This document shows positions 2,250 to 23,672 of a DNA stretch of 48,731 bases, one piece after another (position 1 is the first letter of the stretch; each line of letters opens with the position of its first letter). The position numbers and the translations under genes are program-made. The DNA lies in IMG/VR virus record IMGVR_UViG_3300031952_000028, positions 1 through 48,731 of that record; one strand, 5' to 3'. Source of the stretch: a virus. The notes beneath the pieces are model-generated. The model did no database searches, was not told the DNA's origin, and saw only the letters and a program-made list of their open reading frames with translations.

Positions 2250-3013
2250 AACATCTCCAATTCTTTACTTTTTTTCAATTTACGAAGAGCTTTTGCTTCG
2301 ATCTGGCGCACCCTCTCCCTGGTAATACCAAATTTTTTCCCGATCATTTCAAGCGTCTGTTCTTCGCCTGTTTCGAGGCCAAATCTTTTATACAACACTT
2401 CTTTCTCACGATCTGTCAATTTTTTTATAACTTCAGCAATTTTTTTATTTATTTCTTCATTACAGATGATTTCTAAAAAATTATCATTACTTTTTAATGT
2501 TTCAGAAAAAATAATTTCGGTTCCCTGAATAAACTCTTCCAGGGAATGAATTCTTTTCGATATCTTCAGGAGATTGATAATTTTATCAGTTTTGAAGCCG
2601 GTCAAAATTTCAACCTCTGAAATATCAGGTTCCCGATTAAATTTTTTCGTAAAGAATTTAACAGCCCTTTTTACTTTAGATAATTGATCGTAAACATGAC
2701 TAGGCATCCGGATACATCGACTTTTATTATTAATAGCCCGCTGGATAATCTGTCTGATCCACCAGATAGCATAGGTACTGAATTTGTTTCCCTGGCTGCA
2801 ATCAAACCGTTCCATCGCTGTAATCAGACCAAAAACACCCTCCTGAATCATATCCTCAAAATCAAGCCCTGCCTCAGTACAATGATAAAATCTTTTTACT
2901 ACGCTGACGATCAGGCCCATATTAGCTTTGATAAATTCTTCCCTGGCCGCTTGGTCGCCGGATTGAAGCCGTTCGATGAGTGATTTTTCTTCTTCCGATG
3001 ATAATAGTTTCAT
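2237..3013 (-). CDS. Phage-encoded sigma70-family factor
   Basis: A 258-residue sigma factor without region 1.1. Region 2 spans about residues 25-95, with the -10-reading helix NKFSTYAIWWIRQIIQRAI (76-94). Region 3 runs about 100-160, and region 4.2 lies at 220-246 with the HTH TLEMIGKKFGITRERVRQIE. The layout is that of group 2/3 primary-like factors rather than ECF. It should redirect host RNA polymerase core, perhaps to middle or late phage promoters. Unlike its neighbours it lacks a good ribosome-binding site: only AAGG 14 nt upstream, right after a pentamer array. Translation may therefore be weak or controlled. Confidence 0.92.
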   Translation of the reverse strand: MKLLSSEEEKSLIERLQSGDQAAREEFIKANMGLIVSVVKRFYHCTEAGLDFEDMIQEGVFGLITAMERFDCSQGNKFSTYAIWWIRQIIQRAINNKSRCIRMPSHVYDQLSKVKRAVKFFTKKFNREPDISEVEILTGFKTDKIINLLKISKRIHSLEEFIQGTEIIFSETLKSNDNFLEIICNEEINKKIAEVIKKLTDREKEVLYKRFGLETGEEQTLEMIGKKFGITRERVRQIEAKALRKLKKSKELEMLWCQ

Positions 3014-8733: not shown

Positions 8734-9384
8734 TTATGTCTATTAACATATTGATAACGTTATAAAAGTAACATTGTTACCCTTTTGTTACCTTTTTATC
8801 ATCTATTAATATATTGATAATATTAATCATGTAACCATTGTAACCATTGTAACCTTTTTTGAACGGAGCACACAGCCTATGAATATTCCCTAATGTGTAG
8901 TACATGTGTATTACACGTTCTTGTGCGTACCCTATTCTTAAAAATGGTTACAATGGTTACAATGGTTACATAATAATATCAAATCTTTGTTTTTATTAAT
9001 AATTAATTGTAACCTTTTTAAAAGTAAAAAGGTTACAATGGTTACATTATTGAATTCATTATGTCTATTAACATATTGATAACGTTATAAAAGTAACATT
9101 GTTACCCTTTTGTTACCTTTTTATCATCTATTAATATATTGATAATATTAATCATGTAACCATTGTAACCATTGTAACCTTTTTTGAACGGAGCACACAG
9201 CCTATGAATATTCCCTAATGTGTAGTACATGTGTATTACACGTTCTTGTGCGTACCCTATTCTTAAAAATGGTTACAATGGTTACAATGGTTACAAATAA
9301 TATCAAATCTTTGTTTTTATTAATAATTAATTGTAACCTTTTTAAAAGTAAAAAGGTTACAATGGTTACATTATTGAATTCATT
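8734..9384. repeat. Tandem 325-bp duplication with TGTAACC/GGTTACA iterons
   Basis: Copy 1 is 8734-9058 and copy 2 is 9059-9384, identical by eye except for small differences including a 1-bp gap near 8971/9295. Each copy holds three TGTAACCAT units at 9-bp steps (8830, 8839, 8848 in copy 1), three inverted GGTTACAAT units (8946, 8955, 8964), a hairpin of TGTAACCTTTTT and AAAAAGGTTACA, and more single motifs, about nine exact 7-mers per copy. The sequence is very A+T-rich and lies between the PrimPol-helicase and primase genes. It is a candidate iteron origin or a regulatory region. Confidence 0.88.
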
Positions 9385-9439
9385 GATTAAATTAAATGAC
9401 AGCACTTTAAAAATATACATTTAACTTGTGTTATTTTAA

Positions 9440-12376
9440 TTAAAATGGTAGTATTTCACTCTCATAACTCCAAAATTCGGAAAGTTCAAGCCTTTTGATT
9501 GTCATTTTGTCAATATTTAGCTCAAAAGCTTTTCTTACGTTTTGCCCAATTCTTACAGGTTTGTTACTGTTCATGTAGTACGATTCTCTTTGTAACTGCT
9601 TTTTGAAGATTGATTCCGGCAACAAATCACCTTCGAATCTATAAGATTTTGCCCACTTTAGAAACTTTGGATAAGAACCATGAACATATAGCCTTAAAAC
9701 TGATATTCCAGGTTCATAAATGATATCGTAATCAACATCTTTCTCTAAATAATCCTGGTAGGAATATTGTCTCTCTTCTCTGTTTCCTATAGTTTTAGTC
9801 TGGAATTCACACATTAAACACATAGCTTCGAGAATTTTGTCAACTGCACTTTTACGGTGGAATGAATCGCCTTCTTTGATCCCTTCCTTAACCGCTACAT
9901 CAACCTGCGATAGGTCAAATTGCATCCCTAACACATCGCTCAAGATCCGAAGACCAAACCTGACCACTGCTGCATTAGTTCGCGGCCTGTCCTCGAGTTC
10001 AGAATCAACCGCTTCAAGCTCCTTTTCCAGGATATTTTTGACCTCTTCCCTGCCCATTCTGAGAGCCTTTTCCAGGATAGACCGACCCAGTTTTTCAAGT
10101 GGTTGTTTGCGCAATTCTTTAAAGTTTTGCAAATATGGAGAACTATCCCTTTTAGAGAGAAACACGGTGACAAACCTATCCAGTAAGGCAGATTCGGTGA
10201 ATCCGGTTTCTCCGATTATTACCACGGGTGCCTGATATCGATAAACCTGTGTAGTCTGATCGGCCCTGCCCCGCTCACCTTCGAGACAATTATAAATTGA
10301 TCTTATGAGATTACTGATAAGGTTCTGGAAGTAATCTGTCTGCATACATGCCTTATTTTCTTCCAGAATTACAGGTATCGTGTTTGAGCCGTCAACCATT
10401 TTCATCATTGTGAATTTAGTGAGTTCACCGATAGATTTTGGTTCCCCCTGGATAGCCCACATTCGCATAATAACCGCTTCTGCACTTTGCGTTTTCCCCG
10501 ATCCAGCTTCCCCTTGGATGTTCAAAAGAGGGAATCCGTTACTTAAGCCTATTTCATCCAAAGTTTCCGAGATAATGGATTTTAAAAAGCAAGCTGTAAT
10601 CCATCCCAGGACAGGTAAGGATACTATGGAAATATTGAAGTTAGCGATATGCTTTCTTATCCCTGAAAGTTCGTCTGCTGTAGCCGGTTCCACGGATAAT
10701 AGCTTGCAGTTAGTAGGCACCTCATTAAAATAGACAACATCCTCAGATATGCCTTGGATAGACAAGGCACCCTCTTCGGTAACGAATTTACCATCGTGAA
10801 AACCTGAAGTCCTCACTCCAGCCTTGTGTGCCATCTCGAAGGTAGACATAAGAAATCTGATATACTGAACATCTATCGTACTTCCAGCGAAGACGGTTTC
10901 CTTGCCTGGCAGGACATTCATAAACTTTTGGGTATTTGACCAACATCCGGGAGGGAATAAGACTTTTTTAAATTCTTTGTATCCAGCTTTGATATTTACG
11001 TTGAGAGTTTCACCTTCACCTTTGATGGTAATTGATTCGATAGGTTCAATGCTAAAAGTGGTTATCTGCACCTCTTCACGGATCTTTTCTCCGAATCTTT
11101 CCTTAATCTTAATTTTCCAAATTCGGCCATCTTTCTCGAAAACCGGATTACTGATGTAGCGGTTTAATTCTTCTTCAGTATTTTTCAGCGCCTTGGATTC
11201 GGTCTCTTTTTGTGCTTTTTCTTCCTTCCATGCCTTCAAAAGACCTTTTATCTCGTCAGCACTAAGAGAGAATTTTTTTTTGAGTTGTTCCTTTAGGATT
11301 CGGTTAACTTTTAGCTCATCACATTCAATAAGATCATTCAGAACGAAATATCTAACCTGGCTGATAGCTTCTGTAGGATCTGGATTGACTTCAAGCCTGT
11401 TAATTTTTTTTTTCCATAACTCATCAATATCCTGTCTGTTTTGAGAGATAGCCTCTGCCGAAGTGGCCTGCTTTCCACGACCTCTGCCTTTATAGGTCTC
11501 AATACAGCCCTCAATGGCCCTGGATATGGTCATATCTCCATAGGTCTCTTCTCCATGCCGTTCATCCCATTTATCACGCATCAGACCGGATTGCCTGAAA
11601 AATGCATCTATCCGGTCATAGTCCTTTTTTGTCCAGAAAGCCAATTTTGAACACAGAGAAAGTTCGGCCTCACTTTGAGAGCGAAAACCTGATATATCAC
11701 CTTCCCAGAGGGCTTTAAATTCATGGCCATTTTTGGAATTTATGGCCTTATTGATCAACTCAGTATCGGATATGCTCAGAATGACATCTGTTTTATGCCC
11801 CCCCCCACTGTGTAACCTGCTGGGATGGTCTTCCAACAAACTGAAATGGATATCATTAATTTCATTTTGTCGTTTTTCTATGAGGGCAGGAGTGTTGTCC
11901 AGACGATTTCCGGTTATGGTCAGAAATCGACCCCTGACATAAATTTCGATGTCACCCCTTTTACACCGCCCAATAGGTTTCAGGGCTTCCGCATAAATGT
12001 GTACTCCTGTTCCTGAAGGAGAAAATTCACTATAAGAATTAAGTTGGTCGATGATCTTTTGCGCCCAGGGGAGAATAACGCCATTTTCAACGCAATGATC
12101 GAGATCGATTCCCGTATAGGGGTCGTCGTCGTAAAATTCAAAACCTAATCCATTATATTTTTTACTTTTTAAAGCATTACAAGCCTGTTCGAAGGTTCCC
12201 CAGGTCGCAGGATCATTCGCTTTTGCTGGATGTCCTGTTTTGGGGTCATAGGGCACTTTAGCCAGTTTGGATTCACCTTTGTCGATAAGTTTGTAACACA
12301 CCCAATGAGGATAATCCCGCAACTGTTGAGGGATATTATTAATTTTCCCAGAAAAATCATTATCGTTATCATTCAT
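9440..12376 (-). CDS. PrimPol (AEP) primase-polymerase fused to SF3-like helicase
   Basis: A 978-residue replication protein. Residues about 15-185 form an archaeo-eukaryotic-type primase: DxD in YTGIDLDHC (D91, D93), SPSGTGVHIYAEA with H126, and IEIYVRGRFLTITG. A helical linker (about 310-400) follows. A C-terminal AAA+/SF3-type helicase has Walker A GEAGSGKT near 622-629, Walker B-like VILEEN near 669-674 and sensor FVTVFLSKRD. Such proteins can prime and copy DNA and unwind it, as in phage and plasmid replicases such as NrS-1 polymerase. No other replicative polymerase is seen in the window. It ends about 55 bp from the iteron duplication. Confidence 0.9.
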   Translation of the reverse strand: MNDNDNDFSGKINNIPQQLRDYPHWVCYKLIDKGESKLAKVPYDPKTGHPAKANDPATWGTFEQACNALKSKKYNGLGFEFYDDDPYTGIDLDHCVENGVILPWAQKIIDQLNSYSEFSPSGTGVHIYAEALKPIGRCKRGDIEIYVRGRFLTITGNRLDNTPALIEKRQNEINDIHFSLLEDHPSRLHSGGGHKTDVILSISDTELINKAINSKNGHEFKALWEGDISGFRSQSEAELSLCSKLAFWTKKDYDRIDAFFRQSGLMRDKWDERHGEETYGDMTISRAIEGCIETYKGRGRGKQATSAEAISQNRQDIDELWKKKINRLEVNPDPTEAISQVRYFVLNDLIECDELKVNRILKEQLKKKFSLSADEIKGLLKAWKEEKAQKETESKALKNTEEELNRYISNPVFEKDGRIWKIKIKERFGEKIREEVQITTFSIEPIESITIKGEGETLNVNIKAGYKEFKKVLFPPGCWSNTQKFMNVLPGKETVFAGSTIDVQYIRFLMSTFEMAHKAGVRTSGFHDGKFVTEEGALSIQGISEDVVYFNEVPTNCKLLSVEPATADELSGIRKHIANFNISIVSLPVLGWITACFLKSIISETLDEIGLSNGFPLLNIQGEAGSGKTQSAEAVIMRMWAIQGEPKSIGELTKFTMMKMVDGSNTIPVILEENKACMQTDYFQNLISNLIRSIYNCLEGERGRADQTTQVYRYQAPVVIIGETGFTESALLDRFVTVFLSKRDSSPYLQNFKELRKQPLEKLGRSILEKALRMGREEVKNILEKELEAVDSELEDRPRTNAAVVRFGLRILSDVLGMQFDLSQVDVAVKEGIKEGDSFHRKSAVDKILEAMCLMCEFQTKTIGNREERQYSYQDYLEKDVDYDIIYEPGISVLRLYVHGSYPKFLKWAKSYRFEGDLLPESIFKKQLQRESYYMNSNKPVRIGQNVRKAFELNIDKMTIKRLELSEFWSYESEILPF

Positions 12377-12380
12377 ATAA

Positions 12381-12593
12381 CTAATTGTATCTTATATTTT
12401 TTTCTCTTTGAAAGAAATAATGTTCAACCATTTCAGGAATGATCTCTTTTTTACCTCCCGATTTCGGAGGTCTCCCCACTGTCCGACAGGCAGGAGTCCC
12501 GATTGTTTTTATCAGCACACTTTTGCCATTATCGGTCAGGATCTGTCTCTCGTATCCATTTCTGACAAAGGTTTGGTTTTCTGATAATTGCAT
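12381..12593 (-). CDS. Small basic protein with AT-hook-like motif
   Basis: I start at the ATG at 12593 (70 residues); the open frame extends upstream through a GC-rich hairpin with no ribosome-binding site. The body reads as a short beta-rich N-terminus (TFVRNGYERQILTDNGKSVL) followed by TVGRPPKSGGKKEI, which resembles the GRP core of AT-hooks, and a helical end. It precedes the PrimPol-helicase by 4 bp, so it is likely co-translated. It may bind DNA as an accessory or regulator; no family recognised. Confidence 0.6.
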   Translation of the reverse strand: MQLSENQTFVRNGYERQILTDNGKSVLIKTIGTPACRTVGRPPKSGGKKEIIPEMVEHYFFQREKNIRYN

Positions 12594-12620
12594 CTTGCTT
12601 TCCGCCTGATTAAAAGGAGG

Positions 12621-12651
12621 CCCTGCGGGCATGGGCAAAATGCCCGCAGGG
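12621..12651. terminator. Strong GC-rich hairpin
   Basis: CCCTGCGGGCA (12621-12631) pairs perfectly with TGCCCGCAGGG (12641-12651) around TGGGCAAAA. On the minus strand GGCCTCCTTTT follows, a weak U-tract. It may attenuate leftward transcription entering the replication genes, or mark the edge of the inserted-looking region to its right. Confidence 0.5.
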
Positions 12652-12703
12652 TAATAAGGAAAGAAAAGGGGAATGCAAACCCGCCCGCAGGCAGGGTAAA
12701 GCC

Positions 12704-12738
12704 TTGACACTCCCACGGCTGAAGCCAGTGGGATTCTC
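12704..12738 (+). mobile_element. IS200/IS605-like terminal hairpin remnant (copy 1)
   Basis: TTGACACTCCCACGGC, a TGAA loop, then GCCAGTGGGATTC: stem CCCAC/GTGGG plus GGC/GCC with one bulged A. From memory, this shape and the flanking TTGAC and GATTC match ends of IS200/IS605 (TnpB-carrying) elements. No TnpA or TnpB is present, so it is a solo end or MITE-like relic. A second, covarying copy lies at 26496-26530. Confidence 0.5.
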
Positions 12739-12903
12739 AGGCAAACACCCTAATGGATGCTTAACACCTGAACGGTCTGCCCGACCGCTATAATCTGCCA
12801 TAAATTATATGTAAAATATCATAAAAAATATGAGAAAATTACTCGTCAGTATCCCCCCCCCTGTGTCCACCTACGCTAAACCTCTGGTATGGTTTTAGCA
12901 TCT

Positions 12904-12958
12904 GCTCTGTTGTGCTGAGCTGAACTGTACTGCGCTACACCACGCTGTGCTCAACGCT
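12904..12958. repeat. Short degenerate GCT/ACT pentamer array
   Basis: About eleven 5-bp units, most ending in CT: CTGTT GTGCT GAGCT GAACT GTACT GCGCT ACACC ACGCT GTGCT. It has the same period as the NNGCC arrays but a different fixed core and more decay. It runs into the CRISPR-like element at 12948. Confidence 0.55.
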
Positions 12959-12987
12959 TTTCGGTATCAGAGGGATAGATAGTTGCC
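12948..12987 (-). repeat. CRISPR-repeat-like element, inverted third copy
   Basis: By hand alignment this matches the reverse complement of the repeat at 14792-14831 at 32 of 40 positions, with 28 of the first 31 identical (TGCTCAACGC, then TTTCGG, ATCAGAG and GATAG blocks). It is the diverged, inverted partner of the two plus-strand copies, about 1.8 kb away across the regulator genes. Confidence 0.6.
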
Positions 12988-13389
12988 AAAGTTACCCCTG
13001 CAGGAGGCGCTGGCATCCTGCAGGGGTCCATCAAGTAGCAATCAGGCTTTCAGCCTGTGATTGCCAAAAGTTCCCCGGTCTGACAGGCCAAAGACCAGAC
13101 CGGAGTAGCCAAGTGCAATCGGGGAAGGCGTCCCCCGGAATTGCCAAAAATGAGCAAAGCAGTCGGTTATAAAATGTAACCAACTGGTAATATCGTGAGA
13201 AATCCTGCACGGGGGCCCTACAACAGGATGACTATTTTCTCTCGTTACCGTGCAGGGTTTGTACAACAGAGGGACCGGAATTGCCAAATGACCGGATTCA
13301 CCAGGAGAATGAATTCGGCACCTTTGCCAGAATGAAATCGATCAGATCGAACCGATCGCCCCTGTCACTCTAGGCGGTGGTAAATTTAA
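12960..13389. ncRNA. Candidate structured RNA: multi-hairpin region with TTGCCAAA repeats
   Basis: No credible gene lies here. Stems seen: 12994-13004/13017-13027 (11 bp, ACCCCTGCAGG); 13038-13048/13052-13064 (GCAATC-AGGCT with a 2-nt bulge); 13075-13082/13096-13103 (CCGGTCTG); 13115-13124/13133-13144 (GCAAT-CGGGG with a 2-nt bulge); 13161-13186 (GGTTA/TAACC); 13204-13212/13248-13256 (CCTGCACGG). TTGCCAAA recurs at 12983, 13061, 13141 and 13281; two copies close hairpins of identical design. The strand is undecided. Confidence 0.5.
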
Positions 13390-13424
13390 GCAGGTCCGGC
13401 CACTCAGCCCGTGGCCGGACCTGC
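13390..13424 (-). terminator. Terminator of the leftward regulator gene
   Basis: A perfect 14-bp stem, GCAGGTCCGGCCAC with GTGGCCGGACCTGC, around a 7-nt loop. On the minus strand TTAAATTTA follows. The stop codon of the gene at 13404-13697 lies in the loop, so the gene ends inside its own terminator. A second stem, GGGGCCAC/GTGGCCCC (about 13426-13454), lies just upstream within the coding sequence. Confidence 0.75.
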
Positions 13425-13697
13425 TGGGGCCACAACTTCTGCAACCGTGGCCCCTTCGCCGGAAATATCCCCATCGCAAGGAATATCCCTGTAGAAATCA
13501 GCAAAGCCGTAACCGGTTATCTCAATGAGTCTGGGAACATGCTTTGGGAGTATCTGTGCATGATATGGCGAAGAAAAATCCATACACCAGAACACAAGCC
13601 CGCACATGGATATCTTGATCCCTTTCTCATTGAGATAAACAAGAAACTCTTTATATGTAAAACCTTTTTCGATTTTAAACTTTTTTAGTGCTCTCAT
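13404..13697 (-). CDS. Putative HTH regulator of the leftward arm (repressor/Cro-like)
   Basis: A 97-residue basic protein. The N-terminal 65 residues (FKIEKGFTYKEFLVYLNEKG, then LPKHVPRLIEITGYGFADF) fit a compact helix-turn-helix of phage Cro/CI type; the C-terminal tail is low-complexity and partly encoded by terminator stems. It is divergent from the gene at 13856. A good promoter places the transcript start within a base of the ATG and no Shine-Dalgarno exists, so its mRNA looks leaderless, as for lambda cI from PRM. It probably controls both arms of the switch. Fold assignment is by pattern only. Confidence 0.6.
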   Translation of the reverse strand: MRALKKFKIEKGFTYKEFLVYLNEKGIKISMCGLVFWCMDFSSPYHAQILPKHVPRLIEITGYGFADFYRDIPCDGDISGEGATVAEVVAPAGPATG

Positions 13698-13704
13698 GAT
13701 TTAT

Positions 13705-13733
13705 ATATTAGTATGGCTAAGAATAGAAGTCAA
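13705..13733 (-). promoter_or_regulatory. Leftward promoter for a leaderless transcript
   Basis: -35 TTGACT (13733-13728), a 17-bp spacer, -10 TAATAT (13710-13705). Initiation 6-8 bp downstream falls at about 13698, next to the ATG at 13697. The 158-bp gap to the divergent gene should hold the operators. Confidence 0.75.
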
Positions 13734-13784
13734 ACTTTTTTATCAAGATTGATGAATTTTTTTTGTACTACTAAGGATAACTTA

Positions 13785-13825
13785 TTGAATTATAATTGTT
13801 TTTTAATATAAAAAAGGAGTATAAT
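13785..13825 (+). promoter_or_regulatory. Rightward promoter candidates of the switch
   Basis: TTGAAT (13785-13790) with 16 bp to TATAAA (13807-13812), or TTGTTT (13796-13801) with 18 bp to TATAAT (13820-13825). Both lie in the divergent intergenic region and would transcribe the gene at 13856. They are weaker than the leftward promoter by consensus match. Confidence 0.5.
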
Positions 13826-13855
13826 AAAATGCATATTCTCTGGGGGAAATAAAAA

Positions 13856-14344
13856 ATGAAAGATAATAAAGCCATTATCGCTAAAAATCCTTTATCTGAA
13901 AACATAGCAAAAATATTGAATTATAAAGAAGGAATGCTTGAAAGTGAATTAAGGAAGGAGGCTAAAATTATATCTGATAAGATAAAAGATAGATTTAAAA
14001 AATCGGTTAGTCCTGAAACGATAACATCATGGACGTTGGCCGATAGAAAAGATCCTGTCAAAGGGAGAATATTTATAGGTTTTGACAGGATCTCTATGTT
14101 TTCGGAAATAGTCGGGATTAATTACTGGGAATTGTTTATTCCATCAAATTTTTTAAATATCAATAATTTATCCTTAAAAAGAAAAGATACTATAGAAATG
14201 GTACTTGCTGTTGATGAAAAATTTCTCATTGATATTCAACACCTTATAGAGTCAAAGAGTAGAGAAGATGCTGCTAGAGTACTTAAATTAGCTACAAAAT
14301 TTTCTGATATCATAAAGAAAGTAGATGATAGCGATAACCAATAA
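13856..14344 (+). CDS. Putative XRE-like regulator of the rightward arm
   Basis: A 162-residue protein. Residues about 28-105 (LRKEAKIISDKIKDRF, then SVSPETITSWTLADRK, then FSEIVGINYWELFIP) fit a helix-turn-helix followed by the helix that ends XRE-type domains in LF. The C-terminal 55 residues are helical and may oligomerise. GGGGG lies 10 nt before the ATG. Just upstream, a minimal ORF of seven codons (13829-13852, product MHILWGK) with a good GGAG could act as a leader peptide. A Lys/Asn-rich, A+T-rich gene. The 3' end overlaps the opposing gene at 14310 by 35 bp. Confidence 0.65.
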   Translation: MKDNKAIIAKNPLSENIAKILNYKEGMLESELRKEAKIISDKIKDRFKKSVSPETITSWTLADRKDPVKGRIFIGFDRISMFSEIVGINYWELFIPSNFLNINNLSLKRKDTIEMVLAVDEKFLIDIQHLIESKSREDAARVLKLATKFSDIIKKVDDSDNQ

Positions 14345-14519
14345 TTGTTAATATAATATCAATTTTTTTACGATCATCCTCACTTAATATATGATTGTCC
14401 CGCATTATTTCTACATTTTTATTGGAAAAAATAGGCAATGGCAGTGATGTAAGTATAGATATAGCCAGACTTCCAGCACTTAAATACTGAATCATATCAA
14501 TTTTCTCTTCCTGATTCAT
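14310..14519 (-). CDS. Small protein with a hydrophobic segment
   Basis: A 69-residue ORF on the opposite strand to its neighbours. AGGGGG lies 6-7 nt before the ATG. Residues about 11-30 (QYLSAGSLAISILTSLPLPI) are hydrophobic enough for one membrane helix; the remainder is charged (SEDDRKKIDIILTII). It converges on and overlaps the 3' end of the regulator at 13856-14344. Alone on its strand, it could be a small immunity or exclusion protein expressed in the lysogen; this is speculation. Confidence 0.5.
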   Translation of the reverse strand: MNQEEKIDMIQYLSAGSLAISILTSLPLPIFSNKNVEIMRDNHILSEDDRKKIDIILTIIGYRYHLLSL

Positions 14520-14582
14520 GATTATCCCCCCTACCTCTTCTTAAAATATTTTATCCTTATTAAAAAATAGCAATAAAAATTC

Positions 14583-14611
14583 TTGACTTGTTTTAGTGGT
14601 AGTAATATAAT
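14583..14611 (+). promoter_or_regulatory. Consensus promoter of the right operon leader
   Basis: -35 TTGACT (14583-14588), a 17-bp spacer and a perfect -10 TATAAT (14606-14611). Transcription from about 14618 would make a roughly 270-nt leader holding two hairpins and two CRISPR-like repeats before the gene at 14890. It is one of the best sigma70 matches in the window. Confidence 0.8.
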
Positions 14612-14632
14612 TATTTATTGATGAATTGATTA

Positions 14633-14693
14633 CCGCGAAGAAATCTTCCCCCAGAGGAGCTTCGCGGGAAAGTCCTGGGGAGCTTCGGCTCCC
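14633..14693 (+). ncRNA. Structured 5' part of the 14618 leader transcript
   Basis: Two stable stems in a row: CCGCGAAG (14633-14640) with CTTCGCGG (14660-14667), then GGGAGC (14678-14683), a TTCG tetraloop and GCTCCC (14688-14693). The C(UUCG)G cap is exceptionally stable in RNA. No T-tract follows, so it looks like a stable leader RNA rather than a terminator. No gene was found in 14520-14889. Confidence 0.55.
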
Positions 14694-14728
14694 TGGGGCA
14701 AAATTAATATCAATGATTATTTTTAGTG

Positions 14729-14831
14729 GATAATGATTATCTCTCTGATGCCGAAAGACGTTGAGCAAATATAAGAATATAAATCTGGGGGGATAATGAC
14801 TATCTCTCTGATGCCGAAAGGCGTTGAGCAT
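14729..14831 (+). CRISPR. Two-copy CRISPR-repeat-like element, no cas genes
   Basis: Two 40-bp direct repeats, 14729-14768 and 14792-14831, differ at two positions and are separated by a 23-bp spacer. The core GATGCC-GAAA-GGCGTT folds into a short GNRA-capped stem, followed by an 8-9-nt tail GTTGAGCA, the layout of processed CRISPR repeats. Copy 1 has a mismatch in the stem (AGAC). The 63-bp period is shorter than usual arrays. A third, inverted copy is at 12948-12987. No cas gene lies in the window. Confidence 0.5.
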
Positions 14832-14889
14832 ATCCATAAGACGGTTATAACACAAAAGGATTATATTTGTATCACTGACAGGAGGAAAA

Positions 14890-15203
14890 ATGGAAGAAGT
14901 GCAGGAAGCAAAACAGGAAACAGAAGAATTACAAAAGCCTTTTTATATCGTCCGTACCTACTCCGCAGGCGTATTTTTTGGCCACATCAAAACCCGTGAG
15001 GGTAAGGAGATCGTAATGACCAATACCCGCATGCTGTGGTATTGGGATGGAGCGGCATCGCTTTCTCAATTGGCAATGGAGGGTACATCAAAACCAGCTA
15101 ACTGTATTTTTCCATGTGCGGTTGATCGAGTTGTATTAACTGAGGTTATCGAAATTTTAGATTGTACGGATGCAGCCGTCAAATCAATACAAGGAGTGCC
15201 AAT

Positions 15204-15216
<13 letters not shown>
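14890..15216 (+). CDS. DUF6948-like phage protein
   Basis: A 108-residue protein with a GGAGG-rich ribosome-binding site. The segment PFYIVRTYSAGVFFGHIKTR, then GKEIVMTNTRMLWYWDGAASLSQLAM and VVLTEVIEIL, matches a small conserved phage family that I recall as DUF6948, whose role is unknown. Many phages pair it with a following Gly-Tyr/Ser-rich repeat protein, as here: the next gene begins inside its last codons (13-bp overlap). It is the first cistron behind the promoter at 14583. Confidence 0.75.
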
Positions 15217-15593
<377 letters not shown>

Positions 15594-15603
15594 GCCACAA
15601 AAA

Positions 15604-15654
15604 AGCCGGTCTGTCGGGAAAGTCCATCCCCCATTGAGCAATCCCGATCCGGCT
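15604..15654 (+). other. Bipartite hairpin before the ferredoxin gene
   Basis: AGCCGG (15604-15609) pairs with CCGGCT (15649-15654), and within it TCGGGA (15614-15619) pairs with TCCCGA (15642-15647). It lies between the (Gly-X) gene and the ferredoxin gene, 43 bp before the latter. No T-tract follows. Possible processing or attenuation site. Confidence 0.45.
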
Positions 15655-15696
15655 GGCTCACTGGAAATTTGATGTGAAAGATGATGAGGTGAAAAT

Positions 15697-15876
15697 ATGC
15701 CACCAGTTATCGATACCTGGAAATGCACAGGCTGTGAGGTTTGTATTCAAACCTGTCCAAACGATTCTTTAATGATGGATGAAGGAAAACCGGTTTTAAA
15801 TCCTGACGGGTTTGAATGCGACGGTTGTGGAAGTTGCGTAGAGGAATGCCCTGAAGAGGCAATCACCATTATCTGA
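15697..15876 (+). CDS. 2[4Fe-4S] bacterial-type ferredoxin
   Basis: A 59-residue protein with both clusters of the 8Fe ferredoxin family intact: CTGCEVCIQTCP (C10, C13, C16, C20) and CDGCGSCVEECP (C41, C44, C47, C51). Length and symmetry are typical (55-60 residues). GAGGTG 6 nt before the ATG supports the start. It carries low-potential electrons in the cytoplasm of anaerobes, to hydrogenases, oxidoreductases or radical-SAM enzymes. In a phage it could be an auxiliary metabolic gene or a partner for an iron-sulphur host enzyme; no partner is visible here. Confidence 0.92.
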   Translation: MPPVIDTWKCTGCEVCIQTCPNDSLMMDEGKPVLNPDGFECDGCGSCVEECPEEAITII

Positions 15877-15897
15877 TGAAGGTAGTGAGTAAACTGT

Positions 15898-15971
15898 AAT
15901 CCGATCTTTTCGGGGATCGGATTTGGGTGAGATCTCCCTGGCTGGCACCTCCCCCGCTGGTCAGGGAGATC
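15898..15971 (+). other. Two tandem hairpins in the right operon
   Basis: AATCCGATC (15898-15906) pairs with GATCGGATT (15915-15923); GATCTCCCTG (15931-15940) pairs with CAGGGAGATC (15962-15971). They fill most of the gap between the ferredoxin gene and the gene at 15987. No U-tract follows either stem. The string AGATCTCCC recurs before other genes of the operon. Confidence 0.5.
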
Positions 15972-15986
15972 ACCAGGGGAAAGAAA

Positions 15987-16133
15987 ATGTACGAAATCAG
16001 TTCACTTAAGTACAAAAGAATCTTCAGAACATCCAAATTAAATAAGGCAATCAGAATCGCCGGAAATCGTACCCGCAACACTAAAACGGATTGGTACGTG
16101 TGGTGGGGAAACCTTTTAATTTACAAACCATAG
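15987..16133 (+). CDS. Hypothetical 48-residue basic protein
   Basis: AGGGG lies 7 nt before the ATG at 15987, just after the hairpin pair; the open frame extends upstream only through those hairpins. The product is basic (SSLKYKRIFRTSKLNKAIR) and ends with the aromatic string TDWYVWWGNLLIY. It has the size and charge of a small nucleic-acid-binding or antirepressor-type protein, but no family is recognised. Confidence 0.6.
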   Translation: MYEISSLKYKRIFRTSKLNKAIRIAGNRTRNTKTDWYVWWGNLLIYKP

Positions 16134-16145
16134 AGAGGGGAAAAT

Positions 16146-16496
16146 ATGATGCAGGAAGCACAAAAGGGGGACCTGATCAAACAGCGGGAAACCATCGAGC
16201 TAGTCGGCAACCTGACCAGGTATCTGGGAAAGAGAAGTAAGGATAAACTCCTTTTTACATGGGAGTGTGAAGGGCTTGCAGTCATCGTAAACGACGACTA
16301 TCGGCATACCATCGCTATGTACGATGATACAGCCGTTTGCTCAAACTTGTTCGATCCTCCCCTTTTTGTTCCTGGCCCCTGGCTCGATATAGTACACCGA
16401 CTCCATGATCAGATCAGAGCAGACCGGCTCTGCATCGAATGGGAAAAAGTTAATGGGGTCCCGTGTCCGGCTCCTGGAGAGATCTCCCATGCTTAA
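16146..16496 (+). CDS. Hypothetical phage protein
   Basis: A 116-residue protein with GAGGGG before the ATG. The sequence has a helical start ([20 protein letters not shown]), a strand-rich centre ([20 protein letters not shown]) and a proline-rich turn ([14 protein letters not shown]). No catalytic motif or membrane segment is evident. It is coupled to the SEC-C gene by an 8-bp overlap and lies just before the recombination genes. Confidence 0.65.
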
Positions 16497-16677
16497 AATA
16501 ACACCCGAAAACTACAGCAGAGAACAGGAGATACTTACCAGGGAAAATAAAACAGCTATCGAAAAGAAACATTTGACATGTACGGTCGTACATGGACAGC
16601 CGAAAACCGGCAGGAATACCACTTGCCCTTGCGGCAGCGGGAAAAAGTTTAAAAAATGTTGCGGTTTTCATAAATAG
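16489..16677 (+). CDS. SEC-C zinc-binding motif protein
   Basis: A 62-residue protein whose C-terminus is a complete SEC-C motif, [14 protein letters not shown], the zinc-binding tail first known from SecA and found on many small phage and bacterial proteins as a protein- or nucleic-acid-binding module. The N-terminal 40 residues are helical and charged. The start is the ATG at 16489 with GGAGAG about 8 nt upstream, overlapping the previous gene. It precedes the Rad52-like gene and may be an adaptor for it or for host SecA-like partners (inference). Confidence 0.8.
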
Positions 16678-16687
16678 GTAAAAAAAA

Positions 16688-17452
16688 ATGGAAAATATGC
16701 TTGAAAAGTTAAAAAAACTCGGAGATCCTCTTCCATCAGAAGCAATCCAGAGAACAAAGGATAAGCTGACCCACAAGGGATACGACACTGACGGATATGG
16801 TGTTCAGTTTTGCATTAATAGGTTGAATGAGGTACTCGGTACAGAATGGGGCGTGCTCTGGGAAATAATGAATCAGGATAAGGGCTCCACCAGCACGGGG
16901 AAACAATGCTGGGAGATAACCGTTAAAATAGGCATCTGGGTATTGAGTCGAGAGGATGTCAGATGGCATGCTGGTGGGCACATCAGCAAAACGCATTTCG
17001 ATGCCCTTAAGGGTGCCGTCACGAATGGCTTTAAAAAGGCAGCGGCCCTTTGGGGAGTAGGCCGTCAGGCTTACGAGGGTACCCTCGATGATGATAATGA
17101 TCCATGGCCGGAATGGGCAGTACAGAATAGTCTGGGAAATGAATCACCGGCGAATGACAGTCAGGCCCGGCAGCAAGCCCCACAGCCGCCGGCGCCAAAA
17201 CAACCGGAATCTGCTTCCCCTGCATCATCTGCCGAAAATGGCAAAGAGGCCGGTCTGCGAAAAAAAATAGTCACCCGCCTGACAGCCATTTTTGCTAAAG
17301 ACGAAAAAAAGATTAATGCGTGGTTTCAATCCAAAAGCAAAATCGTAACTTGCTTGAAGGATCTGGATGGCCTAAATGTTGAGACCCTTGAAAAAATTTT
17401 CAAAGAAATTGAAAAACTGATTGAAGAGTTAAAAACGACTAACAAAAATTAA
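16688..17452 (+). CDS. Rad52-family single-strand annealing protein
   Basis: A 254-residue recombinase. The N-terminal domain (about 20-150) carries the Rad52/Sak pattern: GVQFCINRLNEVLGTEWG, then a strand region, then HFDALKGAVTNGFKKAAALWGVGRQAY. A Pro/Gln-rich linker (about 170-200) joins a helical C-terminal tail, where such proteins bind partners. It anneals complementary single strands for phage recombination and, here, probably works with the next gene's SbcC/RecF-like ATPase and with SSB. The ribosome-binding site is weak (TAGG). Confidence 0.9.
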   Translation: MENMLEKLKKLGDPLPSEAIQRTKDKLTHKGYDTDGYGVQFCINRLNEVLGTEWGVLWEIMNQDKGSTSTGKQCWEITVKIGIWVLSREDVRWHAGGHISKTHFDALKGAVTNGFKKAAALWGVGRQAYEGTLDDDNDPWPEWAVQNSLGNESPANDSQARQQAPQPPAPKQPESASPASSAENGKEAGLRKKIVTRLTAIFAKDEKKINAWFQSKSKIVTCLKDLDGLNVETLEKIFKEIEKLIEELKTTNKN

Positions 17453-17465
17453 TCTTTTTATCATA

Positions 17466-17494
17466 ATCAGGGATCTCCCGAAAGAGATCCTGAT
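17466..17494 (+). other. Bulged hairpin between the Rad52-like and ATPase genes
   Basis: ATCAGGGATCTC pairs with GAGATCCTGAT through one bulged G, loop CCGAAA. It starts 14 nt after the Rad52-like stop codon and ends about 14 nt before the next ATG. It shares GATCTCCC with the elements at 15931 and 16481. Confidence 0.45.
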
Positions 17495-17507
17495 AGGCGA
17501 AAAAATT

Positions 17508-19082
17508 ATGGATGATAATAACGGTGACAGGCCGCTTCGGATCGTTGAATTCAGGGCGGAAAATACGAAGGTAATCAAAGCGGTCGATATTTTCCCTGGG
17601 GACAGGGACATAATTGCTTTGACGGGCAAAAACAAACAGGGCAAATCAACCATCTTGGACGCTATCTGGATGGCGCTGAGCGGAAAAAGCCATATTCCGG
17701 ATATGCCCATCCGGACTGGAGAAAAGAAGGCCGAAATCTATCTTGATCTTGGAGATTTTAAGATTATCCGCAAAATCTCCAGGAGCGGAGAATCGCTGAA
17801 GGTCGAAAGTTCGGATGGCCACCAGGTCACCAGCCCACAAAAATTCCTCTCTTCCTGCCTGGCTGATCTGGCCCACAATCCATTGGAGTTTATGCGGATG
17901 AAATCAAAAGAGCAGCTTGAAATTGTTCAGGGGCTTTTTCCGCTGCCTGTCAATACAGTTGAAATTGAAAAAATAGCCGGTCTTGCGGCGAAGACGGTCA
18001 AGATTGGAGATAATAAGGCGCTCTATCTCGATAACGTGAACAAGGCCCTCTTTGAAGAGCGCACTGAAAATAATCGAGAAGTTCTCAGATTGGAAAAGGT
18101 GATCGAATCCATCCAGATTCCACGGCATCTGGAGGATCTGAAGGTCACGCCGGTCATTGAGCTTTTCGAGGAAAGAGCAAAACTCGAAGGGCAAAAAAAG
18201 AAAAACGATGATATCCGGCAAAAAGCGGAGTCTCTCAGAATAGAGTTGGAGGAAATCAATAAGGAACTTTTAAACAATAATACTGAAATAACGGATCTCG
18301 AAAAAAAATTTGAAACATTGAAGCAGGAAAGGGTTGACCTCGTGAGTCTGTCCTGCGATCTGCAGGATAAATATTTTGCGGAGAGCGATAAAGCCGATGA
18401 GCTGATTGAACCTGATTTCAGTGACATCGATGCCCGCATTAAAAAAGTTGATGAGGACAATAGGCAGGCTAATAAAGTAATCCAGGACAGGACTACAATA
18501 CAGAAGGCTCGGGCTGACTGGGAAAATGCCCATAAAGATTCCGAAAAGCTTACCAGCCAGATGGAGGCCCTTAAAGCCTATAAATTACGCCTCGTCGAGC
18601 AGGCGAAACTCCCCCTTACCGGCCTTGGCTTTGAGGATGGCAGAGTAATCTATAACGATCTCCCCTTAGATCAGGCCAGTACTCGGGAACAAATCGAAAT
18701 TTCCTGCGCCATCTGTCTGGCCCAACATCCCAGGATCGGTATCGTGACCATCGATATCGGCTGGAGTGAACTGGATAAGGAAGGGCAGAAAATTATTTGT
18801 GAATTTGCTCATAAAAATGGCGCTCAATTTTGGGTAACCCAGGTCAGTGAAGAGCCTGGTCAGAAGGGATTTCACATCGTGGCTGGGGAGTTGACTGCTG
18901 TTGACGGGGTGGCGGTGGCTGAGGATTGCGGGGATCTGCCGGAAACGTCGGAAGCATCAGAGGAAAATACTGATGGGATTTTGACCGTGAACGGTCAGGG
19001 CAGAATAGGTATTGTTAATCCTGATGATATAGAGATTGAAGATACTGATTTTTTAAAAACTAAAGAAATAGGACTTTGGTAA
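17508..19082 (+). CDS. RecF/SbcC-like ATPase
   Basis: A 524-residue ATPase of the AAA_23/SMC type. The N-terminal head has the Walker A ALTGKNKQGKST (about residues 37-48) after IRIVEFRAENTKVI-type strands. A long coiled coil spans about 180-400 (RAKLEGQKKKNDDIRQKAES), and the second head half has RVIYNDLPLDQASTREQIE (signature region) and GIVTIDIG in place of a canonical Walker B. No nuclease domain is present. Phages often pair this family with a Rad52- or RecT-type annealase; it probably loads or clamps DNA ends. The acidic C-terminal 60 residues look like a docking tail. Confidence 0.85.
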   Translation: MDDNNGDRPLRIVEFRAENTKVIKAVDIFPGDRDIIALTGKNKQGKSTILDAIWMALSGKSHIPDMPIRTGEKKAEIYLDLGDFKIIRKISRSGESLKVESSDGHQVTSPQKFLSSCLADLAHNPLEFMRMKSKEQLEIVQGLFPLPVNTVEIEKIAGLAAKTVKIGDNKALYLDNVNKALFEERTENNREVLRLEKVIESIQIPRHLEDLKVTPVIELFEERAKLEGQKKKNDDIRQKAESLRIELEEINKELLNNNTEITDLEKKFETLKQERVDLVSLSCDLQDKYFAESDKADELIEPDFSDIDARIKKVDEDNRQANKVIQDRTTIQKARADWENAHKDSEKLTSQMEALKAYKLRLVEQAKLPLTGLGFEDGRVIYNDLPLDQASTREQIEISCAICLAQHPRIGIVTIDIGWSELDKEGQKIICEFAHKNGAQFWVTQVSEEPGQKGFHIVAGELTAVDGVAVAEDCGDLPETSEASEENTDGILTVNGQGRIGIVNPDDIEIEDTDFLKTKEIGLW

Positions 19083-19108
19083 AAAATAATTAGAGGAGAT
19101 TGATTAAT

Positions 19109-19219
19109 ATGGAAAAAGTCAGACAACAGATTTTAGATCTATGGCACCAGGTCAACCGGCCAGGCATCGAGGATCTTGTCACGTTTCTGCAGGAGAGCGA
19201 TTTTTTCACCGCAGAGTAG
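19109..19219 (+). pseudogene. Truncated N-terminus of a phage HD-type hydrolase
   Basis: A 36-residue ORF preceded by GAGGAG. The product VRQQILDLWHQVNRPGIED, then LVTFLQESDFFTAE, resembles from memory the first 35 residues of phage HD-domain hydrolases, which continue ...DFFTAPAS and then a His-rich catalytic core. Here a TAG stop falls right after FFTAE and the ASCH gene starts 7 bp later, so the catalytic part is gone. It may be a decaying remnant of a deletion, or a retained micro-peptide. Confidence 0.5.
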
Positions 19220-19226
19220 GGGATAA

Positions 19227-19688
19227 ATGAGGGCTATCAGTCTTTGGGAACCCTATGCCAGCTTGATCCGTACCGGAGCAAAAACCTGGGAGACCAGATC
19301 ATGGGCAACGCATTACAGAGGTCCTCTTTTGATTTGTGCGGCAAAGGGTGGCCTTAAGAAGCCGGAATTGATTTCAAAATTATCTCAATGGCATTTTCAA
19401 GGAGGGCTGGCCCCACTCATCGGAAAATCATTGGAATTGAGTGGTTATACAAATTGGCCTGGAGTAAAAATAAGTGATCTCAATTTTGGAATGGCTGTAG
19501 CTGTCGTCGAACTGATCCATTGTATACCCACTTTCGCCGTCTCAGGTCTTAATCCGGGAGGACCTCTTTATGAAACTTTTTTCGGTGATTTTCATAATGG
19601 CCGTTATGCCTGGAAACTGAAATTGATTGAGGCCATCAAGCCATTCCCCGTCAAAGGGAGACAGGGGTTTTTTGAGGTGAAAATATGA
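19227..19688 (+). CDS. ASCH-domain protein
   Basis: A 153-residue protein with AGGGG 5-6 nt before its ATG. It opens with the ASCH signature AISLWEPYASLIRTGAKTWE, then TRSWATHYRGPLLICAAKGG, and ends with the conserved NGRYAWKLKLIEAIKPFPVKG. ASCH is a beta-barrel related to PUA domains; members bind RNA or modified nucleosides and some act as ribonucleases or amidohydrolases. In phages its target is unknown. The stop overlaps the next start by 4 bp. Confidence 0.9.
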   Translation: MRAISLWEPYASLIRTGAKTWETRSWATHYRGPLLICAAKGGLKKPELISKLSQWHFQGGLAPLIGKSLELSGYTNWPGVKISDLNFGMAVAVVELIHCIPTFAVSGLNPGGPLYETFFGDFHNGRYAWKLKLIEAIKPFPVKGRQGFFEVKI

Positions 19689-19948
19689 TCATATTTGATG
19701 AGATAGGGCATTTAGTCTCCACGGAATCAGAGGAAGAGCTTCATCAATTTGCCAAAATGATCGGATTAAGAAGGTCGTGGTATCAAACAAATAAAAACAA
19801 TCCTCACTATGTTTTGACCATATCAGGTATGCGTGGTAAGGCTAGAAGATTTGGAGCTATACAAGTAGATCCGATTGAACTGATCAAAAAAGCCTGGTGG
19901 TATGAAGGAAGTTGCCACCAGAATATTTTGGAAAGAACAGGTAAATAA
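19685..19948 (+). CDS. DUF4031 protein
   Basis: An 87-residue protein. HLVSTESEEELHQFAKMIGLRR, then HYVLTISGMRGKARRFGAI, is the DUF4031 pattern (a short domain with conserved H, ELH.FA and HY residues) common in phages and plasmids, function unknown. It is translationally coupled to the ASCH gene by ATGA. The conserved histidines suggest a metal or nucleotide site. Confidence 0.85.
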   Translation: MIIFDEIGHLVSTESEEELHQFAKMIGLRRSWYQTNKNNPHYVLTISGMRGKARRFGAIQVDPIELIKKAWWYEGSCHQNILERTGK

Positions 19949-20195
19949 ATTAATATCCTTTTCCCGTTAAGGGAAGGAAGTTGTAGAAGATTTAAGGGAA
20001 TTGGGATATAAAATCAGGTAAATAACAAAACAAATGAATAATAATGCCTTGCTTTTATTCACTCAGCAACAGCTCTCCGCTCTTCAGGCTCAGCTCGTCG
20101 CCTGGCAGCAGCAATCGGCGAGTGCTGCTGATTTGACAAATAATATCAATTTATTGCATAATCTCTCATATAATGAAGTTATGGAGGGATTATGT

Positions 20196-21416
20196 ATGAA
20201 AGGGCACATAAGGGCAAAGGGGAAATGTGAGGAGTGTGGAAACAATTTTAAAGATTTTGGGCATATTCTGGCCTGCGAGACTTGTCTATCAAAGGCAAAA
20301 ATCAGCATCCCGAAGCGGTTGTATCTGGAGATTTTCTGGAATGGAAAGCAGAGAAAAATCTACTCGGATAATGACGGCAGGGTATTAAACAGCTATGAGT
20401 TAGCACAGAGGGTTGTGTCCGAGATCAGGCAAAAAATCGACAAACATAAGTTCAATCCGGCTGACTATGTGGCGAAGAGCTACCAAGCCCTTCAATGGGA
20501 ACAATATTGCAAAAACTATCTGGCCAGGCGAAAAGAGAAAAAAGAGCGCGGGGAGCTGTCACTTTCTACGCTTCTGCATGATCAGTATACAGTCGGCAAA
20601 TATATTACCTTCTTTGCATCGTTCGCAGGGAAAGATCTTCGTGATATCAGGGCAGGGGATATCGAAGATTTCAGGTTATCGCTGCCTAAAAAATTAAAAC
20701 TCTCCTCTCAGAAGGAAACTCTTTCCATTCTCCATAATATTTTTCAGGAAGCAAAAAAGCGGGAAGACCTCAAAGTTATTCCTGATTTTCCTCTCATCAA
20801 AACGATGGAGGTCCAGCGGAAATGGCTTGATGAAGAGGCGCAGACCCTCATATTTGCCCATATCCCTGATCGGCATAAAGCAATTTTTACCTTTATGTTT
20901 AAGCAGGGGTGCAGGCCGGGAGAGGCCCGTGCCCTGCAATGGGAAGACGTGGATATGATCAACAAATATGTGCATATCCGGAGGACATTTTCGAGGGGGG
21001 AATATCAGGCCGATCGCACAAAAACGAAACGAGGGAGAATCCTCCCCTTGAATGATGAGGTCTGTGAGATTCTGAAAGGAATGCACGTCAAAGGGATATC
21101 AGGATTTGTCTTTCGTCAGGAACGGACAGGGAAACCGTACCTTGCCGGATGCACTTTGAACGACGTCTGGGATACGGCCCTCAAACTGGCAGGAGTTCCA
21201 CGGGTGACGCTTTATGAAGGCACCCGGCATTCCTTTGCAAGCCAGGCCGTACAGGAGGGTGTGGATCTGTATGGATTGCAAAAATTCTTAGGGCATACCG
21301 ATTCAAAAATGACAGAGAGGTATACGCATATAGGTGTTGAGGGTTTGCAACGGGTTTTGGATATCAAGGAGGGGAAAGTTGTAAAGATGGGAAAAAGGAA
21401 AGAAAAAGAAAAATGA
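20196..21416 (+). CDS. int: Tyrosine recombinase (phage integrase)
   Basis: A 406-residue integrase from the ATG at 20196, where GGAGGG lies 8-9 nt upstream and the product starts MKGHIR as is usual for the family; the frame is open to 20034 (460 residues) with a poor site. An N-terminal zinc ribbon uses C11, C14, C27, C30. The core-binding domain follows, then the catalytic domain: R240 (GCRPGEARAL), a Lys near 277, R344 (YEGTRHSF), H367 (LGHTD) and nucleophile Y376 (TERYTHIG). The usual His of HxxR is Glu341. It should catalyse attP x attB recombination. Confidence 0.93.
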   Translation: MKGHIRAKGKCEECGNNFKDFGHILACETCLSKAKISIPKRLYLEIFWNGKQRKIYSDNDGRVLNSYELAQRVVSEIRQKIDKHKFNPADYVAKSYQALQWEQYCKNYLARRKEKKERGELSLSTLLHDQYTVGKYITFFASFAGKDLRDIRAGDIEDFRLSLPKKLKLSSQKETLSILHNIFQEAKKREDLKVIPDFPLIKTMEVQRKWLDEEAQTLIFAHIPDRHKAIFTFMFKQGCRPGEARALQWEDVDMINKYVHIRRTFSRGEYQADRTKTKRGRILPLNDEVCEILKGMHVKGISGFVFRQERTGKPYLAGCTLNDVWDTALKLAGVPRVTLYEGTRHSFASQAVQEGVDLYGLQKFLGHTDSKMTERYTHIGVEGLQRVLDIKEGKVVKMGKRKEKEK

Positions 21417-21799
21417 CCAAGAAAGAAGCTATTGAATTTTTTGCAGAGTTTTATGGCGGGGAACATCATATACCTGGGGAAATTTTTGAAGACGATAGTG
21501 GGTGGCGTATTAGCCATTGTGGGAGTTTAGCAACATTTGATTCTAATGCACTGACCAGACTTGTAATAATGGCTCACGATAAATGTATCCGTACATGTAT
21601 TTCTGGATGCAATCATAATCATATCAAGATAAGCATCTGGAATCGTAATTCTGAAGGAACATGTATCATGGATAGTCATCCCACTATCGAGCAAGCTCTC
21701 AAAAAATGGAGGAAGATACATTTTCCCAGGAAAATAAAAAAACCAGTCCCAGTGACTAGCCCCAGACTAGCCCTGGAGTCAAAAAGTTCAAAAATATGA
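21413..21799 (+). CDS. Hypothetical phage protein
   Basis: A 128-residue protein whose ATG overlaps the integrase stop by 4 bp. The sequence AIEFFAEFYGGEHHIPGEIF, then GSLATFDSNALTRLVIMAHD, and HPTIEQALKKWRKIHF matches a small family I have seen in many phages, without known function. His and Cys residues are scattered but form no clear metal site. Coupling to the integrase could point to a role in integration control, but the family also occurs away from integrases. Confidence 0.7.
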   Translation: MTKKEAIEFFAEFYGGEHHIPGEIFEDDSGWRISHCGSLATFDSNALTRLVIMAHDKCIRTCISGCNHNHIKISIWNRNSEGTCIMDSHPTIEQALKKWRKIHFPRKIKKPVPVTSPRLALESKSSKI

Positions 21800-22021
21800 T
21801 TAATAGAATCAATGACTTTCAAGCGAGTAGATATTTTCCCTCCAAATGTCTACTTAATACTATATTTGAAAAATATTGATAATAAAATCAATAGGTTATA
21901 TATAATTTAGGAACTAAATCAGGGCTAATGATAATAATTTTAATTATCAATAATAAATCAAATAGTTATATATGATTTTTTAGTAGCCCCAAAGTAACTC
22001 CATGTTGGAGATATCGACAAA
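21800..22021. other. A+T-rich intergenic region, possible attP
   Basis: 222 bp without a gene, downstream of the integrase pair. Two related direct repeats, around 21881-21910 and 21950-21983, share ATCAAtAGgTTATATAtaATTT-type sequence (written as an approximate consensus) and are about 70 bp apart, like arm-type integrase sites. The stretch is rich in TTGATAATAA strings, also at 21876. No exact core can be named without the bacterial attB. Confidence 0.35.
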
Positions 22022-23328: not shown

Positions 23329-23336
23329 TTTATCCC

Positions 23337-23672
23337 TTATGAAATTTTTGATAAATTAATCACTTTATACATATATGCACCTGTCCCCGTAATCAGGACC
23401 GCTCCGGCCACCTTTGACCAGGTAATTGTAACAAGCTTTTTTTCATAAACTTCTGAGCTGTTTATTATCGCATTTTCGGCAGAGGATATATGGATGTCAT
23501 AAGCATTACTTTCAGGAATAAAAGCCGTAACAGCCTTGATTGCAGTACCCGTCAGGACATCATCTATCCGATACGTGCCGGAATCCGGCGTTACCTCATT
23601 CCCGTCCTCATCGGAGAACATCACCTGTATAACACAACTTGATTTTTCGTTTACTTCGGCCAGGGCAATCAT
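23337..23672 (-). CDS. Hypothetical virion-region protein
   Basis: A 111-residue protein predicted to be all beta (SSCVIQVMFSDEDGNEVTPD, then GTYRIDDVLTG). The size and position between the tail-fibre region and lysis genes suggest a small Ig-like or tail-tip accessory domain. Its ATG overlaps the upstream stop by 4 bp. No family recognised. Confidence 0.65.
   Translation of the reverse strand: MIALAEVNEKSSCVIQVMFSDEDGNEVTPDSGTYRIDDVLTGTAIKAVTAFIPESNAYDIHISSAENAIINSSEVYEKKLVTITWSKVAGAVLITGTGAYMYKVINLSKIS

Follow-up and report, generated by a model that had tools for sequence, protein, structure and literature searches.

The stretch of DNA analysed here (the window, 48,731 bases) is the whole of an unplaced virus record that carries genes for a portal protein, a terminase large subunit and an integrase; therefore, the virus is probably a temperate tailed phage. 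A pair of direct repeats, the subject of this report, sits between a small leftward ORF (14310-14519) and the rightward gene of a DUF6948 protein (Table 1). The latter is the first gene 3′ of the repeats, in an early operon that also contains genes for Rad52/Erf-like and SbcC-like proteins. The promoter upstream of the repeats, proposed by a first-pass annotation made from the sequence alone, was borne out as a near-consensus sigma-70-type element, and transcription is predicted to start near 14618. Two stable hairpins follow, the second of which has a UUCG loop; neither has a run of T after it. Since a search for a terminator ahead of the DUF6948 gene gave none, the repeats are more likely transcribed as part of the 5′ leader of the early mRNA than as a stand-alone small RNA. 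Rfam, searched at gathering scores, returned no match anywhere in the window, and a blastn match to Mycobacterium phages was set aside, as it covers just the GC hairpin at 14674-14698.

Several other features of the record were observed. About 1 kb of the leftward unit (12377-13400) has no convincing gene; several copies of the motif TTGCCAAA adjoin strong hairpins there, and one of these motif copies is adjoined by the third repeat copy described below. A repressor-like ORF at 13856-14344 has no family match. Downstream, an ORF of tandem Gly-Ser-Tyr-rich repeats (15170-15577), for which a family search gave no match, precedes the gene of a 59-aa two-cluster ferredoxin (15697-15876); the presence of this ferredoxin in the phage early region hints at an anaerobic host. 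A sigma-70-family factor with regions 2, 3 and 4 is encoded at 2237-3013.

Table 1. Features of the repeat locus, in window coordinates; R1 is the covariance model described in the text
Feature	Position	Strand	Remarks
Diverged third copy	12947..12982	-	30/36; R1 24.8 bits, E 4e-4
Sigma-70-type promoter, TTGACT-17-TATAAT	14583..14611	+	11/12 consensus positions
Two stable leader hairpins	14633-14667 and 14672-14699	+	fold z -3.7
Repeat mimic, copy 1	14733..14768 (block 14728-14770)	+	31/36 to best array repeat; R1 37.5 bits, E 4e-7
Spacer-like stretch, 27 nt	14769..14795	+	between copies in the 36-nt frame; partly complementary to copy 1
Repeat mimic, copy 2	14796..14831 (block 14791-14833)	+	32/36 to array repeat; R1 44.7 bits, E 7e-9
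DUF6948 gene (PF22253), 108 aa, strong ribosome-binding site	14890..15216	+	Pfam E 2.8e-29

Repeat copies and their CRISPR family

The tandem repeats claimed in the first-pass annotation are real: two blocks of 43 nt each are 93% identical and lie 63 nt apart, start to start. The remainder of the unit has diverged, as would be expected if selection keeps the repeat part. The copies were aligned ungapped in a frame of 36 nt, which is the unit of genuine array repeats. In this frame the spacer first described as 23 bp is present, although it measures 27 nt, the shorter figure having come from a 40-nt unit. The described GNRA cap is likewise there, as GAAA. Copy 2 has an intact GCC-GAAA-GGC stem, keeps 22 of 22 core positions and ends in GAGCAT, while the stem mismatch noticed in copy 1, which ends in GAGCAA, is a C-A pair. 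The diverged inverted copy was also correctly seen: positions 12948-12978, 1.8 kb away on the opposite strand, are 90% complementary to copy 2 across 31 nt. As a repeat mimic it stands in part, since it matches the family, but two of its stem pairs are broken. Its 3′ end is GAGCAC, and it is in sense orientation for leftward transcription, i.e., in the opposite transcription unit.

A covariance model (R1), built from 49 array consensus repeats, is significant at exactly three places in the window, which are the three copies; the next match has an E value of 2.4. Analogously, the next best place after these copies in a pre-filtered scan of the window agrees at 23/36 positions. Even the variable part, that is, the first 13 bases, of copies 1 and 2 is nearer to array repeats than shuffled sequences are (fractions 0.008 and 0.006, respectively). 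As a control, the 25-nt core pattern read backwards gave no match in the window.

The similarity to host repeats had initially been proposed from the sequence pattern; the search of bacterial genomes proposed at that time found related arrays and gave the similarity a firm footing. An exact copy of the 22-nt core TGATGCCGAAAGGCGTTGAGCA was located in more than 118 bacterial genome stretches, most of which are arrays; the array unit of the family is the 36-nt GTGANNNNNTCTNTGATGCCGAAAGGCGTTGAGCAC. By sequence, then, the window element matches the repeat of a real, widespread CRISPR family (Desulfobacterota, Planctomycetota, cyanobacteria and others). Genes for a Cas4-Cas1 fusion, Cas5 (Cas5b), Cas7b and Cas8b adjoin family arrays in Thiocapsa and Alicyclobacillus; the Alicyclobacillus gene that matches Cas8b also matches the related Cas8a MYXAN model. 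Moreover, type I-B arrays of Leptospira have a near-identical repeat core (PMC9372919). Taken together, the cas genes beside two family arrays and the Leptospira core indicate that the mimic is probably aimed at, or taken from, type I-B, an assignment drawn from the arrays of other bacteria. The full 5′ part of the window repeat was not found in the 395 Desulfobacterota genomes searched.

Departures from an array and predicted fold

The doublet is not a normal array. Type I-B arrays of the form GATGCC-NNNN-GGCGTTGAGCAC (Leptospira, PMC9372919; Thiocapsa, Myxococcus, Desulfobacterota) have the 36-nt repeat and the stem in common with the window but, unlike it, have a period of 67-79 nt, a final C and linked cas genes. 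Indeed, some 1,340 genuine repeat-to-repeat intervals fall within this range with a handful of outliers and are never 63 nt (further arrays were also examined). Nearly all array copies have C as the final base of the repeat, where copy 1 has A and copy 2 has T. Lone copies elsewhere have lost this base significantly more often than arrays (11 of 43 loci, compared with 1 of 49 array consensus repeats; p = 0.001). Thus, the doublet has neither the canonical period nor the identical, C-terminated repeats of arrays and viral mini-CRISPRs. A search of ten phage proteins, including the neighbours of the repeats, found no convincing Cas match.

Targets for the spacer were sought in several ways. IMG/VR contains no exact match to positions 14768-14790 (the first 22 nt of the spacer plus one repeat base); the spacer seed matches nothing in the window above shuffled controls; and none of three spacer-like stretches targets the window itself. 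Conversely, when approximately 1,500 spacers from family arrays were compared with the window, the best matches were of 14-18 nt, i.e., at chance level.

Folds were predicted for naked RNA, with the leader taken from 14618. In the predicted leader, copy 2 forms the GCC-GAAA-GGC hairpin of Cas6 type with a probability of 0.93-1.0. The copy 1 hairpin has a probability below 0.06, the mismatched copy instead pairing with the spacer and with the first part of copy 2, and for copy 3, whose stem is lost, the predicted probability is 0. In these models neither copy 1 nor copy 3 takes up a Cas6-type fold, and both have the look of diverged duplicates. Cleavage by Cas6 would be expected in copy 2 between 14823 and 14824, 66 nt before the DUF6948 start codon. 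If the predictions hold, the leader would have one working Cas6 site, and a single cut would leave about 206 nt upstream, with the Cas6 stem at the 3′ end of this product.

Related viral and chromosomal copies

The repeat family is found in other viral records of IMG/VR as well, from a single copy to a few. Short-period pairs recur among the loci collected: 63 nt in L123/L124, 61 nt in L170, 64 nt in L171 and 65 nt in L043, a planctomycete contig. The notion that every short-spaced doublet has just one active hairpin was rejected, as some fold two. The phages of L125 and L170 are relatives, sharing 76.6% identity across 1.3 kb, and in both a promoter-like sequence precedes the repeats, which occupy one syntenic site. 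A single copy is present in L125, while L170 contains two plus a degenerate third; therefore, such units change copy number within a phage lineage.

In both of these phages the promoter-linked repeats form a cassette that is close to a tail gene and is followed by a GC-rich hairpin (L125:600-760 and L170:5490-5745). Just upstream of the L170 cassette lies a hairpin ending in GAGGATTGAAAC, which resembles the repeat of a second CRISPR type, and one L170 RNA might serve against two systems. Record L168 (G419) carries family copies at 23333-23368 (-) and 26868-26903 (+), which, as in the window, are on opposite strands, here 3.5 kb apart. On chromosomes, a lone type I-B repeat followed immediately by further, spacerless GCCGAAAGG hairpins was observed at L059:4990-5100, L060:1350-1445 and L064:5500-5570. 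In two Oscillatoria the unit precedes a GMP synthase gene by about 64 nt, and in a planctomycete it is located at a helicase gene; these units are possibly Cas6-dependent leaders or crRNA-like regulators.

Closer relatives of the window were not found. Convincing repeats were present in 0 of 34 DUF6948-related phage loci, and searches for close phage relatives with the repressor-like ORF, the SbcC-like protein and the primase returned none. Approximately 395 Desulfobacterota genomes, searched with the repeat pattern, window DNA 9000-22000 and DUF6948, gave family arrays, low-complexity matches and SEC-C matches, with no prophage relative.

The decoy reading and its alternatives

In our opinion, the doublet is probably a decoy, similar in action to the RNA anti-CRISPRs termed Racr and directed against type I-B CRISPR-Cas of the Cas4-Cas1-fused kind, a reading in which our confidence is moderate. 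Decoy action had already been preferred to a working array on first inspection, and this preference gains weight from a period unlike that of arrays, the loss of the final base, the absence of any spacer target in the searches and the single predicted Cas6-type hairpin. The promoter-linked repeats of L125 and L170 also speak for it. Together with the family identity of the repeats and the promoter sequence, the geometry and the predicted hairpin are the observed part of the case. From there we infer transcription, Cas6 binding, Cas7 sequestration and inhibition, as follows. The early promoter at 14583 would produce a leader RNA with repeat mimics ahead of the first early genes, and the intact copy 2 hairpin would serve host Cas6 as a binding and probably also a cutting site. 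Carrying Cas6 on its 3′ stem but lacking a proper guide, this RNA may then draw Cas6 and Cas7 into unproductive assemblies, so that the real Cascade would be starved while the phage programme starts.

The number of repeats counts against the decoy reading insofar as two copies suit a guide-type RNA equally well; the negative searches among the DUF6948-related loci, for close relatives and for the full 5′ part of the repeat in Desulfobacterota also count against it. Host Cas6 might cut both repeats and yield a crRNA-like RNA with a 27-nt guide, which could act as a mini-CRISPR against a competing virus or, as with CreA/CreR, keep Cascade at a promoter such as the one that drives the host cas genes. 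This alternative survives best, though we consider it rather unlikely; it implies a discrete RNA that starts with TTGAGCAA and ends in the copy 2 stem. The mini-CRISPRs of SPV1 and SPV2 (PMC6858448) are likewise repeat-spacer-repeat units in viruses without cas genes. However, the window spacer is too short (about 8 nt shorter than array spacers), its first 22 nt gave no exact hit in IMG/VR, its seed gave no match in the window above shuffled controls, no sign of a host leader is seen and the repeat ends are changed. The loss of base 36 is at odds with mini-CRISPR repeats, which are described as identical to host repeats (PMC11656645). CreA/CreR of type I-B and other systems (PMC9458426, PMC12737573) resemble the doublet in that one or two diverged repeats flank a spacer-like stretch, with the first repeat being the more diverged, as in CreA (PMC9458426). 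Unlike the doublet in its phage leader, for which the seed search of the window gave no complementary promoter, they are linked to a toxin gene or a cas operon. The recurrence of related doublets at periods of 61-65 nt, in some of which both hairpins fold, also favours a guide, whereas copy 1 of the window, mismatched and predicted not to fold for Cas6, does not.

A functionless relic, that is, repeats gained from a host array by recombination and now decaying, is in our estimate improbable. Broken stems in copies 1 and 3 would agree with decay, as would the failure to find relatives that would show conservation. Against this stand the intact core of copy 2, the likeness of the 43-nt blocks amid diverged surroundings and the near-consensus promoter upstream. 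We rate slightly lower still the suggestion that the repeats make the leader responsive to Cas6, the copy 2 cut parting the structured leader from the early mRNA and thereby altering expression of DUF6948 and downstream genes in a host with active type I-B. The position in a predicted 5′ leader, no terminator having been found ahead of the gene, the single clean hairpin with its expected cut close to the start codon and the sense orientation of copy 3 in the opposite unit all fit such a switch. The lost stem of copy 3 does not, and the L125 and L170 cassettes adjoin no obvious regulated gene. Finally, a role of the repeats as DNA, either as repressor operators or as sites at which a host CRISPR locus could recombine or insert spacers, is very improbable: copy 1 overlaps the palindrome GATAATGATTATC and a repressor-like ORF lies nearby, but the conserved block is a 36-nt CRISPR repeat rather than an operator, the repeat ends required for spacer insertion are changed and none of the approximately 1,500 array spacers compared fits the phage.

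The decoy reading is best judged against the Racr elements themselves (RacrIF1 and RacrIC1; PMC10651486). Like these, the doublet is an intergenic phage repeat mimic behind a promoter, without cas genes; its sequence and structure match a CRISPR repeat of a known subtype, as indicated by R1 and by the type I-B cas genes beside family arrays. Cas6f cleaves RacrIF1, in which inhibition resides 5′ of the cleavage site and the handle can vary, while RacrIC1 is on one mRNA with an acr gene (PMC10651486). The window element analogously retains a stem-loop with an altered 3′ handle and possibly shares its mRNA with early genes. It differs in its tandem copies 63 nt apart, of which only one is predicted to fold for Cas6, in its distant third copy and in having type I-B as the probable target; the published validation covers I-F, I-C, I-E and V-A, and I-B is not mentioned in the text of that paper (PMC10651486). 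It should be noted that the published Racr finder treats repeats less than 100 bp apart as arrays and discards them (PMC10651486), and therefore the window doublet is probably not listed by it. By that operational definition the doublet falls outside the solitary-repeat class, yet Racr-like action is expected of it. Read as a decoy, the element amounts to a variant of the RNA anti-CRISPRs already described, tandem, embedded in a leader and of type I-B. A broader version, which we consider improbable, is that both divergent early leaders carry mimics by which host Cas6 is at once sequestered and sensed, so that cutting would both make the decoy and alter early expression.

Searches for RNA anti-CRISPRs have required solitary repeats. 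The window doublet and the related phage copies at 61-64 nt suggest a class with at least two close repeats that has been filtered out as arrays. The doublet provides a concrete type I-B candidate within an early mRNA leader, where decoy action and gene expression could be coupled.
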